Of a stretch of DNA of 64,000 nucleotides, positions 9,086 through 58,557 are shown in pieces. A program made the position numbers and the translations under genes. The stretch is from Ochromonas danica. Lineage: Eukaryota; Sar; Chrysophyceae; Chromulinales; Chromulinaceae. Each line of letters begins with the position of its first letter. Position 1 is the first letter of the stretch. A model generated the notes under the pieces. The model worked only from the letters and a program-made list of their open reading frames with translations, ran no database searches and was not told where the DNA came from. The stretch lies in the NCBI GenBank assembly GCA_015146655.1, contig VKHL01000004.1:62001-126000 (forward strand), in the 5' to 3' direction.

Positions 9086-10690
9086 TTATGCGATCTCGAT
9101 GGCTTCATAAACAGCCGTTGGTGATGATGGTTGTTTCACACATTGTCCACAAGATCCAAAATCACGCAAAGCTTTACATTTCGTATCACATGACAAGCCA
9201 CGTGCAACTGCAAAAGGTTCTAAATGCTTGCAAACTTCAACCAGTACTAACATTGTGGGAACCTCAACTAAAACACCAACAACTGTAGCTAATGATGCCC
9301 CACTATCAGCACCATAGACAGAAATTGCAATTGCAACCGCAAGTTCAAAGAAATTTGATGTACTAATCAATGCAGCAGGTGCCAAAACATTTGAATCCAT
9401 ACACATCATATACCCAAGTGAATATGTAAGAGCAAAGATTGCCCCTGTTTGAATGGTCAATGGAATTGCGATCAAAAGGATATGAAGAGGTTTATTTCCA
9501 ATAGTTCGGCCCTGATAGATGAATATTAGCACTAAAGTAGCTAATAATCCTATAGTGGTCACTGGTTTGAACCATTCAATAACGGCATTCAATCTGGCTA
9601 CACCACCATACTTCAATGATAGCTGACGCACGAGAATAGCCATAATAAGTGGAGCTACAATAAATAAGCCCACAGACACGGCAATTGTGTCATAAGGAAT
9701 GGGAATCGACGAAGCATTCAAAAGCAAAAGCATAGTGGGCAAATACAAGACCAACACCAACACGTCATTGACTGCAACCTGCATCAGTGTATATCCAGCA
9801 TTGCCACCAACTAGCAGAGACCAAACAAAAACCATGGCGGTACAAGGCGCACCACCCAAGAGAATGCAACCAGCCAGATACTCGTTTGCGAGATCCACGG
9901 GTATAATTGTGGCGTAAATGTAACGGAATAACACCAAGGCGATGACATACATCAAGAACGGTTGAATCCCAAAGTTGACTGCCGTGGTGAGAAAAATCGG
10001 ACCTGGATTCTTGGCGGCTGAAATGAAGGCGGCAAAATCGATCTGCAGAAGCATCGGGAAGATCATTACCCAGAGCAACACAGCAATAGGAATCGATGTA
10101 TGGAATACTTCAGCTTTTTTGAGCTGGGCTCCAGCATCAGGCACGAAGTAGCCAATCAGAGAACCAGTAGCCATGCATAAAAGCATCCAAACACTGAGAT
10201 ATTTTTCGAAGAATGGTATTTTGGCTTCATTAGGTTGCTCAGCGGATTGAAGGAGGTTCGGGTACAGAGTTCGCACAAATACTTCAATTTCATCTCTAAC
10301 ACGGCGAAATTCACTCATATTGTCGTTTTCTCCAACAAGAGGGTGTGATGGATCATCAAATTCATGATGAACATATTTCTTGACGGTTTTGTTGATGTAA
10401 CTCGGACAAGCCTCACCGTTGTTTGAACACAAAGTGATCACCAAGTCGATAGAATCGACATCAATATCATTCATTCGCTTGGGAACATGATGAGAAATAT
10501 CAATACCACGCTCTTTCATGGCAAGAACAGCCAAAGGGTTGACTGTGGCCGAAGGTTCGCTTCCTCCAGAAAAAACTGTAACAGAATTACCGTAGATTTC
10601 ACGAGCCAAACCTTCCGCCATTTGACTGCGACATGAATTATGTGTGCACAAAAAAACAACTACTGGACACTTTTCAACTGATAGACTCAT
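9086..10690 (-). CDS. arsenate reductase-ACR3 arsenite efflux fusion
   Basis: Single exon, 534 aa. Residues 1-145 are a low-molecular-weight-phosphatase-type arsenate reductase. It has the CX5R loop C15-THNSC-R21, then C88 and C95 in TLCSNNGEAC; the three-Cys layout and the 7-residue spacing match thioredoxin-coupled ArsC. Residues about 162-495 are an ACR3 permease with roughly ten membrane spans and the conserved Cys in GGAPCTAMVF (C283). A Cys-rich tail (CDTKC, then CGQC) follows. The protein should reduce arsenate and export the arsenite. No introns and a bacterial domain set suggest transfer from bacteria. The gene lies between two direct copies of the decarboxylase leader. Confidence 0.92.
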   Translation of the reverse strand: MSLSVEKCPVVVFLCTHNSCRSQMAEGLAREIYGNSVTVFSGGSEPSATVNPLAVLAMKERGIDISHHVPKRMNDIDVDSIDLVITLCSNNGEACPSYINKTVKKYVHHEFDDPSHPLVGENDNMSEFRRVRDEIEVFVRTLYPNLLQSAEQPNEAKIPFFEKYLSVWMLLCMATGSLIGYFVPDAGAQLKKAEVFHTSIPIAVLLWVMIFPMLLQIDFAAFISAAKNPGPIFLTTAVNFGIQPFLMYVIALVLFRYIYATIIPVDLANEYLAGCILLGGAPCTAMVFVWSLLVGGNAGYTLMQVAVNDVLVLVLYLPTMLLLLNASSIPIPYDTIAVSVGLFIVAPLIMAILVRQLSLKYGGVARLNAVIEWFKPVTTIGLLATLVLIFIYQGRTIGNKPLHILLIAIPLTIQTGAIFALTYSLGYMMCMDSNVLAPAALISTSNFFELAVAIAISVYGADSGASLATVVGVLVEVPTMLVLVEVCKHLEPFAVARGLSCDTKCKALRDFGSCGQCVKQPSSPTAVYEAIEIA

Positions 10691-27078: not shown

Positions 27079-29931
27079 ATGGAGAACGAGGATAATCCCG
27101 CACCTGACCAACCTCCTCCTTCAGCACAACATGGAGAAGGAGGTCATGTTGATCCTTCTATTTCTTCTATTCCAAAGTTTATTGGTGATTATGAAGTTTT
27201 AAAGTTTATTGGAAAAGGAAAATTTGCTGTCGTCTATCGTGCAAGAAAAAAAGGTGAAGAACAAGTTGTAGCATTAAAACGTATTTCAGTAGATATGATG
27301 AATGAGAAAGCACGTGAGAAATGTCTAAAAGAAGTTCGTCTATTACAAAGTTTAGATCATCCCAATATTATCCGTTATATGGATTCTTTTATAACAGAGA
27401 ATGATTTGATTATTGTTTATGAATGGGCTGCTGCTGGTGATTTGAAAAGACAATTACGTAAAGCGATTGAAAAAGGTATTTTCTTTGAAGAACGATTAAT
27501 TTGGAAATATTTCTCACAGATTGCTAATGCTATGCAACATATGCATGAAAAACGTATTATGCATCGTGATCTTAAACCTGCTAATATCTTCTTAACATTA
27601 GAAGGCATGATTAAAGTTGGTGATCTTGGATTAAGTCGTGAACTTAGTGAACATACTATACAAGCACATTCAAAAGTTGGTACACCCTTGTATATGTCAC
27701 CAGAGGTATTGAAAGGAGAAGGATATGATTTTAAATCAGATATATGGAGTTTAGGTTGTCTATTATATGAATTAGCAATGTTGAAATCTCCTTTTAAAGC
27801 TGAAGGATTAAATATTTATATTTTATTTGAAAAGATTTCAACGGGTAATTATCAACCATTACCTGATAATTTCTCATTAGAATTACGTAATTTATGTTAT
27901 CAAATGATCTCTACAAAACCAGAAGATCGACCAGAAATAGCAGAAGTAGTTCAAATAGCTCATCGAATGAGATTACAGACCTCTGAAGAGAGACGTTTGA
28001 AACGGATTATGTCCAATTCATCCTTAGCTGCTACAAATTCTACTGCAGAAGGGAAAACAGATGGTACAGGGACAGGACATGGTGATGGTCCTAATGGTGG
28101 TGAAGATGGATTTGGTGCCAAGGAAGAAGGTGGTGGTAAGGAGGATGAAATCCCTTTTCCAATTAATCGAACAAGATCTCGTACTAATAGTAACATCTCC
28201 CAACCTGGCGAAGAACGTGGCTTTATTCATGGTGGATTAGCAGTTGCTACTTCAACTGTTACAGCACGTCCAAGATCAAGTGACAATCCTTTTGCTGTTC
28301 ATTCCACTCACCCTGTGACTCCAGGGACTCCTGTTCTCCATCCAGTGGGTGCCGCCACCTTGGGACTGCCACCTCTCTACAAGGAAACTGAGGAGTATAA
28401 CCCCTCTCTTCAACCTTCCAATAACAGTTATTCATCCAACAATAGAGCAGTTTATCGGCGAAACAAACCTCTTGTAGAAGGAACTTCTAGTCGTAATAAC
28501 AGTGCAGGCAGGAGTAGACCCAACTCAGGGACAAACACTCCCACAGTGGGTGATATACCAGTGTTTGTTGATAGAGGTAGTGGTGGTTTAGTTAGTGCTT
28601 TAGAGAGTAGTGCCCCAGCCTTTGCCTTGATGGATACTGTTTATTCATTGCTTGTTATCCTGGGCTATCCTACACAGGGCAAGAATGATCGTGTCTCACT
28701 TATTCTACCCATTCATTTTGCTGTTAATTTATCTCTTTATCACTGGCCATGTAGACAATTTCTTCAAATGGTTGAAGTGATACAATGGTGTGTTAGACAT
28801 AAATTATCTCGAAGATCAGAACTAGTTGACATTATTAAAGTCATACAAGCTGAGGAAGATGCTCCTTTGACAACAGCTCGAACTATTCTACGAGCATTGA
28901 ATACACTATCTGATACACAAGATGGAGTAGCTTATGATGATGAACTCCGAGGTGTGACTCCTACTAACCTTCTACCAGGCTATGGTTACAGTGTTTGTCT
29001 GGTGTTACTGGCTTTCTTACAAGCTGCTCTGCGAGATAGTCCTCCTGATACTTGTCTACATTATCCAAAAGATATATTGATAGAAGCAGAAGGTGTTGGT
29101 GGGGATGAGGAAGAGGATCCAGAGGAAGTGGTTAGTGATGGCGAGATTGTGGAAGGTATCGATGAGAGGGAAGATGGAAAAGAAGAAATTGGTTTACGTT
29201 CTGCAATAGACCAAGGAGAATTGATTATTGCTTCTGGTGAAGCCTTTAATCATTCCTTTGGTCATATCCATGGTTCAACTAATGTAGTGAATGCAGAAGA
29301 TTGGAAAATGGAGACTGAACGAGTTGCTCCATTACTTTCTCGTAAACTACAAGAAATGACACCCAATAGCTGGCGTATTCATGTTGACCAAGTCTCTACA
29401 TTACATTCGAAGGAAAGAGTGGTTTCTTCTACTCTAACACAATCGGTTGATCAATTACAACGTCTTGTACGTGATGAAGTGAGCAAATTGTCTTCAGGGG
29501 AAAGAGCGTTCAATCAACGACCAGCTATAGAAAGTATTAGTTCGTCTTATGCTTCTCATGCTGATTCCTTGCGCATTCTTCGTGAACGTTTAGAAGTGGG
29601 TCATGATCAATCAGATGCCTATCAACAAACACTTCGAGCCTTGGATGAAACTCTTGAGGAACGTTTGGAGGCATTACATAGTCGACAAGGTGGTAGTGAA
29701 GGTGGGGAGAATGGAGTTCCGATCGTCTTACGTCTTCGTCAAGCTACACAGACATTGCGTGAAGAAGTTGTAGCGCTGGATCAAGCTTTACAAATGCGTA
29801 ATAATCACCTTTTACAAGTACGCCATGATGCTTTACGAGAGCGACGGCGGCATTTGATTCAAAAGCAACGAAAGAAGATAAAGAATCGTCGCTATTCTAA
29901 AGAAGTGGAAGATGATGATAATAGTGTCTAG
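27079..29931 (+). CDS. NEK kinase-IFT57 fusion protein
   Basis: One uninterrupted 950-aa frame. Residues about 38-300 form a NEK6/7-like kinase: GKGKFAVVYRA, ALKRI with Lys67, MHRDLKPANIF (Asp164), GDLGLSR in place of DFG, and GTPLYMSPEVL. A Ser/Asn/Gly-rich linker follows to about 500. From about 510 the sequence is IFT57/HIPPI: MDTVYSLLVILGYP, PIHFAVNLSLYHWPCRQF, LLPGYGYSVCLVL, an acidic segment, then WKMETERVAPLLSRKLQ (about 742) and WRIHVDQ (about 764). The C-terminal coiled coils end in a basic tail. IFT57 is an IFT-B subunit in cilia; NEKs control cilium length and the cell cycle. No stop or splice signal separates the two halves. Confidence 0.9.
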   Translation: MENEDNPAPDQPPPSAQHGEGGHVDPSISSIPKFIGDYEVLKFIGKGKFAVVYRARKKGEEQVVALKRISVDMMNEKAREKCLKEVRLLQSLDHPNIIRYMDSFITENDLIIVYEWAAAGDLKRQLRKAIEKGIFFEERLIWKYFSQIANAMQHMHEKRIMHRDLKPANIFLTLEGMIKVGDLGLSRELSEHTIQAHSKVGTPLYMSPEVLKGEGYDFKSDIWSLGCLLYELAMLKSPFKAEGLNIYILFEKISTGNYQPLPDNFSLELRNLCYQMISTKPEDRPEIAEVVQIAHRMRLQTSEERRLKRIMSNSSLAATNSTAEGKTDGTGTGHGDGPNGGEDGFGAKEEGGGKEDEIPFPINRTRSRTNSNISQPGEERGFIHGGLAVATSTVTARPRSSDNPFAVHSTHPVTPGTPVLHPVGAATLGLPPLYKETEEYNPSLQPSNNSYSSNNRAVYRRNKPLVEGTSSRNNSAGRSRPNSGTNTPTVGDIPVFVDRGSGGLVSALESSAPAFALMDTVYSLLVILGYPTQGKNDRVSLILPIHFAVNLSLYHWPCRQFLQMVEVIQWCVRHKLSRRSELVDIIKVIQAEEDAPLTTARTILRALNTLSDTQDGVAYDDELRGVTPTNLLPGYGYSVCLVLLAFLQAALRDSPPDTCLHYPKDILIEAEGVGGDEEEDPEEVVSDGEIVEGIDEREDGKEEIGLRSAIDQGELIIASGEAFNHSFGHIHGSTNVVNAEDWKMETERVAPLLSRKLQEMTPNSWRIHVDQVSTLHSKERVVSSTLTQSVDQLQRLVRDEVSKLSSGERAFNQRPAIESISSSYASHADSLRILRERLEVGHDQSDAYQQTLRALDETLEERLEALHSRQGGSEGGENGVPIVLRLRQATQTLREEVVALDQALQMRNNHLLQVRHDALRERRRHLIQKQRKKIKNRRYSKEVEDDDNSV

Positions 29932-51674: not shown

Positions 51675-54600
51675 ATGACTGGGTCGTTATTACAGGTATG
51701 AAACAACAGCACCTCTTCCTCTTTCTCATGACAGTGTTGTTTTATGTTCTTTTTGTGGTTAAATTAGGTATGCAGTCAATTACAGACTACCTATCAACAA
51801 CAACAACAATATGATGTCAAGCAAAGTCATCAACTTCTCAACCAACTAGCTTCCACACTAACCTCTATGAATCAAGAACAAGATCGAATAGAGATGAAAG
51901 ACTTTCTACGAGTGATCTTTCTTCTACGTGATGTTTCCATCCATCTCTTGCAAGAACAAAACAACAACAAGACCAACACTCCTCCTGCCTGTACTACTCT
52001 ACTAGCCGTCTTAGTAGAGAGTTGGAAGAGTGTACAGACTAGCTTAACTCTCACTACTATCCATCTTATTGACCCCATTGAACAAGAACTCATACGAAAC
52101 TTGATTCAAATATCTCTATTATCTACCAGACCATCATCATCTTCTCACAAGAACAGTCTACAGGAGATATCTGCTATCTTGAAGAAGATGCTATCTAATT
52201 GTGTCACATGGCCATGGAAGGCCTTGCAAGTAGAATTGACGTCATCTATCTTGTCTGTCACACTTCTTCGTGTTAGTCAACAAGAACAACAAGAAGAAGA
52301 TGAAGAAGAAGAAACAGAAGAGAGTATCATATTCCCTTTATTAGTTCAAATCATCAATCAGCTTGGTCGACATCTTGATAAACAATTTCTGCTATTACAA
52401 CAGGATAAAGAGGCAAACAACACTCAAAACAATAACAATAACAACAACAATAACAGTCAACTGCAACAACAACAACGTGAAGTGGAACAGAAAAGGAGTT
52501 TTGATATTATCTATAAGATGCTTTATAACCTTCTTTCTTTCGGGAAGAATGACAACTGTATGAATCATCTTCGAGTACGTCTGTTAAGTGAGTTTGTGTT
52601 AAACACATTGTCAACTGTCTCCTGTCTGAGTCAATCACCACGTCATGTTACAGCCATCTTTCGACGATTAGGAACAATATGGAAAGATCAATCTTCTCTT
52701 AATATGATCTCAAGTAAACCTTTACTATTGTTATCACAGATATGTAAGATATTATCAAAAGATGTATTAATGATTGTTGGAAGTGGCAAAGATACGGACT
52801 TTACAGAGTTATTAGAGACGTTAACTTCATTAGTTGTCTTACTATATGGTAAAACCTCACTACGTGGTAGTAATAATGATGATGATGATGAGATTGTTAC
52901 TATTGTTTGTGATAATCTGATCTCTATGCTATTGTTACTTTCAAATTCTCCTCTATTAGCTTCTCATCAGAAAGCAATTGATAAAATAATAGTACCTTTA
53001 GTAAATCTTCTAGCTAAAGCTAATTCATCTATTGATTATTCAACTAATCTATCTAAGATGTTTGATAAAGAATGGTCCTTGTCAGAGTCCATTCTATCAG
53101 ATGTTATGATATCATTCATTCAAGCTTTCCTTTATCGATTACAAAAGTTATCAACACAAGCAGAACAGATAGTCTATATACAACATAAGGTGACTACAGT
53201 CTTTATTAAACTATTAGTGGAAAGTCAAGGAATAGTATCATCATCATCATCATCAACATCAGCAGCAGCAGCTAAAACTGTCAATACTATATCTCATATC
53301 ATCTGTACATTCTACACGATGCTCTATACTAACTCTTATAACAGTAATGATGATGATAACAGTAATGCTAATGTTAATGTTGTATCTATGGAGAAAATGA
53401 AGAAAATAGTGAAAGAGAATAGTTTAGTTTTAAAGAAAGCTATCTCTTCTTCTTCTTCTTCTTCTTCTTCTTCTTCTGTTAAAGCAATGGACAAACTAAT
53501 TATTCTTATTCTTGGTAGTTGTGCTATTATTAGTTCTTATTTTCCTCATGGAAATCATCATGACAATAGAAGAGAAGACAATGATAATAATAATAGTAAC
53601 AATAACAATAGCAATGGTAATAAGCAGAAGATGATGAAAGAGTATAATTACTTTGTTGATATTCTATTTCAAAGTTTAGAGGTTTGGATTGAATTAAGTA
53701 GACGAGGAGTAGACGAGCAAGAAGATGATAACAACAATTACAATAACAACAATAACAATAGCAATAACAATAATAGGAATATGTCATACTGGATGATAAC
53801 ATCTATTCTCTTGAATTCATGGCCACAGTTGTCAATGATCTTCCATTATCATGGACTGCATTCTTCACAGGTAGGTCTCACTAGTCTCACTATCTATTGT
53901 CTATCTATGATATGATATGATATGATATGATATGATATGATATGATATGATATGATATGATATGATGTATTCTCACTGTGAATTGTGTTATTGTTATTGT
54001 ATGATGTCATTAGGTTTGTCAAGATTTAGTTCAGATATTAAATACTACTAGTAGTAGGTATTATGAAGAGAAGAAGAAGAAGAAGACAGTGAAGACATTA
54101 CTATTTGATTGGTGTCAATTATTATCTCTAGCACATGATGCCTATAACAACAACAACACTATGATAAGAGATAATGATAATGATGATAATGATGATAATG
54201 ATCAACAGACAGTCTATACTATAGAGAATATTGTATTAGAAGAAGAATTACTACAACCTTGTAAGAAATTGATTTTATTATGTTATCAAGCTATTCATCA
54301 TCATCATCATCATAGTAATAGTAATAGTAATAACAGTAATAGTAGTGAAGACTGCCTCTCATTTGAAGAATTACAACATTGTTATGATGAAAGTAGTCAA
54401 ACGCTCAATTCTATTTATAGTCATTTTAATTCTTCTTCTGCTGCTTCATTACTATTCAATAGATATGAAGGAGAAGTCTATCTACTTAAAGCCTTTCTCT
54501 GTCTATTATATGCTAAAGCAATCTTTCTTTATTATCCAGAAAAATTATCAATAGCTATTAAGTTTGCCAAACAAGCATATAGTTATCTCTATGATCATAT

Positions 54601-57482
54601 TGGATTACAGAATGGTTATGTAATAATTGAAAGTTTATTATTAATAAGTGAAATATATGATTATGAAGGAAGATTTTCACGTGCTTTAGATTATATGGCA
54701 GAATTGAATAGTTACTATCAACCATCACAACCATCACAACCGTCACAACAATTGCAATTGCTTCCTATGAATATTCAATATCATTTAGTTAATCTTCATC
54801 TTGTACGTATCTTATATCGAGGAGGATCTTATAAAGTGAAGACGATATTACAATCCTTATTAGATGATAAAGAAATGTTAATGGTGATGATGAAATATTG
54901 TCTTGGTGGAGTACAATTTGTGAATTATCTTCTAACAGAAGTCTTTCAATTCAATACTAACACTAATGATAATGATAACGATAATAAACAACAACTACTA
55001 CAATCTACTACTACTACCACTACTACTATTACTAGTACTAGTAGTAGTGTAAGTAATATTCAAAAGTCAATTGAGTTAATGAGAATTACAAGAGAAACTA
55101 CTAACAGTAACAGTAACAGTAACAGTAATAGTAGTAGTGATGGTAGTAATAAAGCTAAAGCATTAGTTTGGGCAAGTAATACTCGTGCTCTTAGTCGATT
55201 ATGGAACTTATCACAGTCAACAACAACAATAACAACAACATCTTCTACTAAACTATTCTCTTATCATGTTACTGTTCCGCCCTCTATCTTACAAGAACAA
55301 GAAAGAGGAGAAGGAGAATATGTTAAACTACTATTATCTATGCAAGATCGATTAAGTTTTGATCATTTGCGTGTATTAAGAAGAAGTTGTTGTAGACAGA
55401 CAATTGTTGATTTTCTTCAAAAGGGAGAGAATCATCCGACTACTATTACTACTACTACTAGTAGCAGTCTACCTTGGAACAACAACAATAGCAATAGCAA
55501 TAGTAGTAATAGTAATAGTAGTGATAGTGATGGTGATGCTCAATTCTATTCTTTTCTACTCGGAGCTTCTTCTATTAGTACTGCTTCTCAATTACAAGCT
55601 ATTCATGATTTTCATTCTATCGACAGTGAGACTGTGTCTTCAACTACTACTACCACTACTAGTACTAGTGCTAGTGCTAGTGCTAGTACTGCTGCTAGCG
55701 TTAGTGTGTCTATTAGTCAAGAGATTCTAAAGGCTACTAGTGGAAATCAAAACAGTTTGAAAAACCTTCAAAATCAATTAAAACAAATTATTAAAGATAA
55801 ATTACCAATAGGATCTATCATATGTTTTCTATGTCTTGATCATAATAAATGTGAATTATTACTTGGTCGTTTGAATGAAGAAGGATCATGTCAAGTCATG
55901 AAAAGAGATGCTAAGAATATTATCAATATTTTAAAAGAATTTGATAATAATATGATATTAAATTATAAATCATTACAACAGACATCATCTCTTAGTCAAG
56001 CACAAAATATGACATCAAGTCAAAAGAAAGCATGGTGGATATTAAGAGAAGAAATTGATAAACAATTGAAATTAATAGCAGATCGATTAGAAGAAGAACT
56101 AGGAGATCATATTCGTTTACTTCTTCCTTCTAAACAACACAACAGTTCTAATAGAGAGAAATCGGGATGTCTTATTAATCTAGATGAACTCATTCTCTCA
56201 ACAGAAGAACTGCAAATCAACAATGAGGATGATGATGATGAAGGAGAAGAGGAGGAGAAAGGGTCTGATGTTGATTATGAATCAATGAAGTTAGTTGATC
56301 TTCGTCTATTAGCTAAAGAAAGAGGATTATCAACAACTGGAAGAAAACTTGATATCATAGAGCGGTTAATTGAATTCAATAAGAAAGACAAGACTTTGAA
56401 CAATAATAACCATAACAATAACAATAACAATAACAATAACAACAATAGCAATAAATCTGGTATGATTTCAAGTCAACCAGAGAAACAGAAGAAACCTATT
56501 AATAACACTAATAGTAATAGTAATAGTAATAGCAATAACAACAGAACAAAGAGTGATCAGCAGCATCATAATCATCATAATGGAGGAGGTCATGTTATTC
56601 TAATTCTTGATGAGATATTACAAACATTTCCAATTGAAATTCTTCCTAGTCTACGTCAACAATCATGTAGTCGAATTCCATCTCTTTCTTTATTATTACA
56701 GTCTTCTACTTTGTCAACAACTACAACTACTACTAACCAACAGTTTAGTAGTCAAAGTATGAACACTAACACTATCACAATAACGTCAAACAAACATGAT
56801 AATAATAACAATAATAATAATAGTCGTTGTCATTCTATAGTGGAATTAGATCGTCGTCGTTGTTGGTATGCTGTTGATATTGATCAAAATCTACCTGAAA
56901 CAAGGAAAAACATGGAATCTTTCTTACAACAATATGTTAATTGTTTTGGATGGAAAGGAATTATTGGGAAAATGCCATCACAGGAAGAAATTAGGTAAGT
57001 CCTTCCTATTCCTATTCCTTTCTCTATTTGTTAGTATAGATATTGACTTCTCTCAACTGATTGTTGTCTATAGTGAGATGAATGCTTGGGCTGATTGGTA
57101 TATTTACAGTGGACATGGAGCAGGTGATAAGATATTTAAAATACTATCTGATCCTATACAACATCGTGGAGCATTATTATGGGGTTGTAGTAGTGGAAAA
57201 CTTACAACACAAGGATTATTTGATCCTGAAGGTTCAGCTCTTCAACATTTACAAAATGGATGTTCTATGGTTGCAGGGAATTTATGGGATGTTACAGATA
57301 GAGATCTTGACAAATTAAGTGTAGCTTGTATGGAAAAAGCTCTGACAATACAACAAAAGATATCTGATGAAAGAATATCATTTGCTAAAGCATTAGGAGA
57401 AGCAAGAGATGTTTGCAAGTTGAAATATGCTGTAGCAGGGGCAGCAATAATGTATGGATTACCAATGCTTGCTAGTAGTTGA
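51675..57482 (+). CDS. ESP1: separase (cohesin-cleaving protease)
   Basis: Four exons (51675-51695, 51768-53870, 54014-56994, 57074-57482) encode 1837 aa. The last exon carries the C50 protease site: WYIYSGHGAGD with His near 1716, then LLWGCSSGKL with Cys near 1740, followed by GLFDPEGSALQHLQNGCSM and GNLWDVTDRDLDKL. Separase cuts the cohesin kleisin at anaphase. The long N-terminal part is alpha-helical, with many Asn, Ser, Gln and Thr runs from trinucleotide repeats. A SAP-like motif, LVDLRLLAKERGLSTTGRKL followed by DIIERL, lies near residues 1462-1490, after an acidic patch. The first exon is only 21 nt; the start is placed by splice phase and is less sure. Confidence 0.93.
53906..53965. 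repeat. (TATGA)12 microsatellite in a separase intron
   Basis: Twelve perfect copies of the pentanucleotide TATGA lie in the intron between separase exons 2 and 3 (53871-54013). Confidence 0.97.
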
Positions 57483-58459: not shown

Positions 58460-58557
58460 TCTCCGATAGTATAGTGGTCAGTATACCCGCCTGTCAAACG
58501 GCGCGCCTCGCTCCTCACTGAGCGCGGGAGATCTGGGTTCGATTCCCAGTCGGAGAG
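58460..58557 (+). tRNA. tRNA-Asp (GTC) with a 26-nt intron
   Basis: The acceptor stem TCTCCGA/TCGGAGA is perfect. The anticodon stem is CCCGC/GCGGG with loop C-T-G-T-C-A-C, anticodon GTC at 58493-58495. The loop is interrupted after A37 by a 26-nt intron (58497-58522), the standard eukaryotic tRNA intron position. The T arm is CTGGG-TTCGATT-CCCAG. Mature length is 72 nt with the discriminator G at 58557. Confidence 0.94.

Follow-up and report, generated by a model that had tools for sequence, protein, structure and literature searches.

The gene and its two halves

The window analysed here, 64,000 nucleotides of the chrysophyte alga Ochromonas danica (assembly GCA_015146655.1, contig VKHL01000004.1, positions 62,001 to 126,000 of the forward strand), contains a gene whose predicted product joins a NEK6/7-type protein kinase to a divergent copy of IFT57, a subunit of the intraflagellar transport (IFT) complex IFT-B2. 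A first-pass annotation made from the letters alone had proposed that a complete kinase and a recognisable IFT57 occupy a single frame. Profile searches bore this out, as the 950 codons are uninterrupted and both halves are recovered by Pfam, the kinase at E 1.1e-66 and the IFT57 family (PF10498) at E 1.7e-25 on residues 538-901, covering profile positions 22-350 of 360 with a score of 90.2 bits against a curated cut-off of 40. The open frame comprises 961 codons, with an in-frame stop about 11 codons 5' of the ATG. The IFT57 half also matches in sequence the solved IFT57 chain 8ruy_M (2.6e-6), presumably from Chlamydomonas, and the two blocks by which the annotation had recognised it were both located in the translation, WKMETERVAPLL at residues 742-753 and WRIHVDQ at residues 765-771. 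The features of the gene are as follows:

27079..29931, forward: whole fusion gene, 950 amino acids, ATG start, 0 internal stops
27190..27954, forward: predicted NEK6/7-type protein kinase domain, residues 38-292 (Pfam Pkinase, PF00069)
27376..27378, forward: codon of Tyr100, equivalent of the autoinhibitory Tyr97 of NEK7 by alignment
27670..27672, forward: codon of Ser198, equivalent of Ser195 of NEK7 by alignment
27991..28590, forward: low-complexity linker, residues ~305-504
28453..28467, forward: YRRNK, an instance of the linker motif [YFH]RRxK, counted across the fused clade
28582..29037, forward: calponin-homology (CH)-like helical domain of IFT57, residues 502-653, from an AlphaFold2 model and structural matches
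29077..29283, forward: acidic linker, predicted disordered, residues 667-735
29293..29910, forward: segmented coiled coil of the IFT57 half, residues 739-944, from the model helices
29302..29337, forward: the WKMETERVAPLL block, with key residues kept across the family

NEK kinases and IFT57 are, to our knowledge, known as separate proteins and, as the annotation had surmised, no description of a NEK-IFT57 fusion was found in the open-licence literature searched. Both parts belong to known families, and it is their combination in one protein, the range of organisms that have it and its co-occurrence with a canonical IFT57 that were not found in that literature. Public databases already contain such fusion proteins, some of them named as kinases. 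The interest of the gene lies in a single protein that unites a NEK kinase with an IFT-B subunit, in several ochrophyte groups and alongside an ordinary IFT57.

On comparison with the PDB the fused kinase scored 285 bits with human NEK7 and 288 with a PKR-NEK7 chimera, as against 198 with NEK1 and 177 with NEK2; this typing covers NEK7, NEK1 and NEK2, as NEK6 and the other NEKs are absent from the PDB matches listed. The catalytic residues K67, the alpha-C glutamate E85, H162-R163-D164 and D182-L183-G184 (fusion numbering) are present, and the Lys, Glu, HRD and DLG elements are retained in 43-44 of the 44 aligned fusions, the exceptions being gaps and one D182N. The position of Tyr100 is tyrosine in 43 of the 44 and a gap in the remaining one, and that of Ser198, whose NEK7 counterpart we take to be the activation-loop serine, is serine in all 44. 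The DLG motif, the two NEK7-equivalent residues and the best NEK match in the PDB indicate at the sequence level that the domain is of the NEK6/7 type, set within another architecture. Human NEK6 and NEK7 consist of little beyond the kinase domain (the NEK7 construct in the PDB has 310 residues); the fusion protein departs from this kinase-only architecture by a tail of ~650 residues containing IFT57. Three kinases of this genome were typed against the PDB, namely that of the window and its two next-best own-genome matches, of which the one on contig C158 is NEK2-type (316 bits to NEK2) and the one on C2 is NEK1-type (245 bits to NEK1). All other listed own-genome matches to the fused kinase score ≤183 bits, and it is therefore the sole NEK6/7-type kinase among those seen.

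Spread and ancestry of the fusion

A search with the IFT57 half recovered the truncated database model of the window gene itself (P0002) and one full-length relative (P0003), which is 46% identical to the fusion protein across the aligned length, linker included. The P0001/P0003 alignment served as the query for a homologue search in which 8000 candidates were scored and 658 proteins passed E ≤1e-60; the best 120 were listed, and with P0002 removed 119 homologues were counted. Both the Pfam kinase and the Pfam IFT57 domain occur in 43 of these, a partial IFT57 tail in 48 more (E <1e-3 with a hidden Markov model (HMM) of 34 fused halves), and no tail in 28. A chance Pfam match can be rejected because 43 of the 119 homologous kinases carry both domains, quite apart from an IFT57 score well above the cut-off. 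The tails of 42 of the 48 partial cases stop at positions 110-121 of the tail model, and this shared end suggests a conserved intron in the relatives, which the window gene would lack. Tail-bearing members named among the matches listed include Ochromonadaceae sp. CCMP2298, GSChrysophyteH1, Chrysoparadoxa australica, Triparma strigata and T. laevis, and Aureococcus anophagefferens has a partial tail (P0100, tail-HMM positions 92-199). P0020 and P0053 are MMETSP transcript open reading frames (ORFs) marked complete, each with both Pfam domains, and give RNA-level support for the fusion in relatives. As judged from these sequences, the architecture occurs across several ochrophyte groups and is not peculiar to one genome. 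Among the named rows of the best 120 of the 658 there is no oomycete, brown-algal or diatom protein, most rows being without an organism name.

A phylogeny of 122 kinase domains, which drew long-branch warnings for the NEK1 and NEK2 sequences of this genome used as outgroup, places the window kinase within a clade of 94 rows with a Shimodaira-Hasegawa-like approximate likelihood ratio test (SH-aLRT) support of 99. At least part of the IFT57 tail is found in 92 of the 94, and the 26 tail-less homologues, which include named dinoflagellates, fall outside this clade. One of its two exceptions, P0056, is probably a chimeric transcript, with a kinase domain identical to that of P0007 and a matching early linker followed by other sequence with a match to PF05577, which we take to be peptidase S28. 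The other, P0095, looks like an ORF truncated where the tail begins: it ends soon after residues resembling the start of the CH domain, and its tail-HMM match is not significant (E 1.4). The linker is otherwise poorly conserved, with a median pairwise identity of 13% among the 34 full fusions over the alignment columns of residues 305-500, and it contains the motif [YFH]RRxK in 22 of the 94 fused-clade proteins, against a mean of 0.7 and a maximum of 4 of 94 in shuffled tails, and in none of the 26 unfused kinases; the choice of the motif followed its sighting in two related proteins, and as the rows share ancestry they are not independent.

The IFT57 halves tell a congruent story. In the larger IFT57 tree, whose canonical side comprised the own copy and 51 of the 85 P-proteins of ≥370 residues (the named rows and every second other), all 34 of 34 fused halves form a single clade (SH-aLRT 99), and in a smaller tree of 36 hand-picked rows 14 of 14 do so with support 100/99. 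All fused halves used thus fall in a clade separate from canonical IFT57, and on sequence grounds the fused half is a paralogue of the canonical protein. In the smaller tree the fused rows and 13 rows taken as ochrophyte canonical IFT57, some of them without a name and all selected once the larger tree was known, are set apart from nine others (including Chara, Tetraselmis and a mammal) with support 100/98. The approximately unbiased test rejected a tree in which the 13 group to the exclusion of the fused rows (p-AU 0.026); this rejection may be due to long-branch attraction, and the exact placement of the fused halves beside chrysophyte-like canonical rows may likewise be pulled by long branches. 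On the simplest reading of the trees, IFT57 would have been duplicated once and the fusion would have arisen once, on or near the ochrophyte stem. With a single clade in both of its halves, the architecture is a candidate marker of ochrophyte ancestry. Repeats at the junction are uninformative, there being only one 16-nucleotide direct pair and two inverted pairs of 14-15 nucleotides, all widely spaced.

The canonical IFT57 and constraint on the fused tail

The same genome encodes a canonical IFT57 of 422 residues in four exons on another contig (C52: 52312-52377, 52485-52901, 53005-53415 and 53495-53869; borders set from GT/AG and homology), with relatives elsewhere at 60% identity. Both forms are likewise found in Triparma laevis f. 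inornata, the fused one as TL16_g09234 (P0119) and the canonical one as TL16_g06558 (P0189). At least one gene each was found in the O. danica genome for IFT38/CLUAP1, IFT20 and IFT81; these searches scored the best candidates only, and the gene counts are lower bounds. Since a separate canonical copy exists, the fusion supplies this genome with a second IFT57 and not its only one, which leaves the first-pass claim of kinase activity on every IFT train unsupported; the fused copy is moreover a paralogue that evolves fast, and one IFT38 was found for both.

Rates of divergence differ strongly along the fusion. Over the 34 of the 44 fusions with ≥370 tail residues the median pairwise identity is 75% in the kinase and 23-24% in the tail (two alignments), as against 42% in canonical IFT57 (75 sequences, after 11 of 86 rows, those of green, animal and one unnamed group, were dropped), and by this measure fused IFT57 evolves faster than its canonical counterpart. 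Even so, every fused row that has a residue at the position in question keeps W217, E220, R223, L228, Q66, P96, G126 and E282 (canonical profile numbering), and the tryptophan, first glutamate, arginine and final leucine of the WKMETERVAPLL block are kept in 33 of 33 such rows and in 75 of 75 canonical sequences. Conversely, hardly any fused row retains D95, N101, F116, K120 or K281. P350 is kept in only five of 30, the window protein among them, and G373 in 27 of 29, the window protein not among these. The fold of the tail thus seems, from these patterns, to be under constraint, and other conserved positions, possibly contacts, to have changed.

The AlphaFold2 model is consistent with this. 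Its CH-like domain has a predicted local distance difference test score (pLDDT) mostly of 77-97 per ten residues past the first ten and gives structural matches to the IFT57 chain 8ruy_M and to CH domains; the acidic linker falls below 50 at model residues 170-172 and 174-238; and coiled-coil helices follow at 242-262, 267-315, 318-375 and 383-447 (model numbering). As modelled, the fused tail keeps the layout of IFT57, with a CH domain, a disordered linker and a segmented coiled coil, as well as the WxxExERVxPxL block. It differs from the IFT-B2 subunit in standing behind a kinase, in forming a separate fast-evolving clade, in having lost many canonical residues, and in the presence of a canonical IFT57 alongside it.

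Proposed function and competing explanations

In solved anterograde trains the coiled coil of IFT57 pairs with IFT38, and a long unstructured linker tethers its CH domain, which binds IFT172-WD1 (PMC10191852). NEK7 is described in PMC4632185 as locked by Tyr97, with release proposed to occur when self-associating NEK9 gathers NEK7 molecules. Against this background we favour, with somewhat better than even confidence, the proposal that the gene encodes a NEK6/7-type kinase that uses a duplicated, neofunctionalising IFT57 as a targeting and clustering tail, acting on a subset of IFT-B or basal-body complexes. Homology and fold suggest that IFT-B2 or basal-body complexes would be the site to which the tail draws the kinase, by way of its CH domain, of its coiled coil (which would pair with the one IFT38 found and so compete with canonical IFT57), or of both. 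The kinase would in that case be carried by only a subset of trains. Less certainly, clustering on the tail might relieve the Tyr97-type autoinhibition, in the manner proposed for NEK9 self-association and NEK7 in PMC4632185, and the kinase would thereby be active mainly where IFT complexes concentrate. The two systems would share a Tyr97-type lock on the kinase and activation by self-association of a partner; in the fusion, however, the potential oligomerisation module is covalent and IFT-derived, and its activating role is drawn by analogy. The fusion may in this way give the cells a kinase that can be recruited to the flagellar transport machinery, and as one gene it would offer a direct genetic handle on IFT, flagellar length and flagellar asymmetry. 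A bolder and rather improbable extension is that IFT-B particles in ochrophytes come in two forms, one standard and the other carrying the kinase, with NEK-IFT57 taking the place of canonical IFT57 on the single IFT38. If this is true, particles of the second form could tag one flagellum of the unequal heterokont pair or a single phase of assembly, and the ochrophyte lineage would have a molecular signature in the fusion.

The main rival, which we consider unlikely though it deserves serious weight, holds that the tail, though derived from IFT57, no longer takes any part in IFT and performs a cytoplasmic, spindle or centrosomal NEK6/7 function through other partners of its CH domain and coiled coil. 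Animal NEK6/7 kinases work in mitosis, the genome already has a canonical IFT57, the fused copy evolves rapidly, and the loss of many canonical residues with retention of the fold core allows such a departure. The invariance of W217, E220, R223, L228, Q66, P96 and G126 nonetheless suggests that some shared contacts, or at least the fold, persist. We regard as quite improbable a tail that is a decaying passenger behind a kinase under selection: the gulf between kinase and tail identity (23% in the latter) and the partial tail-HMM match of the Aureococcus protein speak for it, but a tail is at least partly detected in 92 of the 94 fused-clade rows, where a decaying one would presumably have been lost more often, and its invariant core residues and confidently predicted fold also speak against decay. 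The first-pass version, in which the fusion is the organism's IFT57 and places a kinase on every IFT-B repeat, is very improbable; the half is recognisable by Pfam and by fold, but as the sole IFT57 it is rejected by the complete canonical gene on C52, beside which the fused copy is a divergent paralogue. A misassembly or two neighbouring genes read as one, to which a database gene call (P0002, 675 residues, two member sequences) beginning at residue 276 within the kinase and a G+C step from 0.31-0.35 over the kinase to 0.36-0.48 past 28000 (from which we draw no inference) might point, has a negligible probability, the annotation having rightly denied merged gene models, since sequences from other sources show the kinase followed by IFT57 as well, among them complete-marked MMETSP ORFs such as P0020.

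Elsewhere in the window two tRNAs were found by Rfam, one of them also by ARAGORN; the other, of 98 bases (58460-58557, forward), perhaps has an intron. An ORF at 54089-56998 (forward) encodes a separase-type peptidase (PF03568), with a SAP match (729-763) lying within the stretch covered by the peptidase model. On the reverse strand at 9086-10690, a 534-residue ORF combines a low-molecular-weight phosphatase domain (PF01451, 11-142) with a following domain of the sodium/bile-acid-symporter type (PF01758, 204-398), an arrangement that we take to resemble an arsenate reductase joined to an ACR3-type arsenite exporter.
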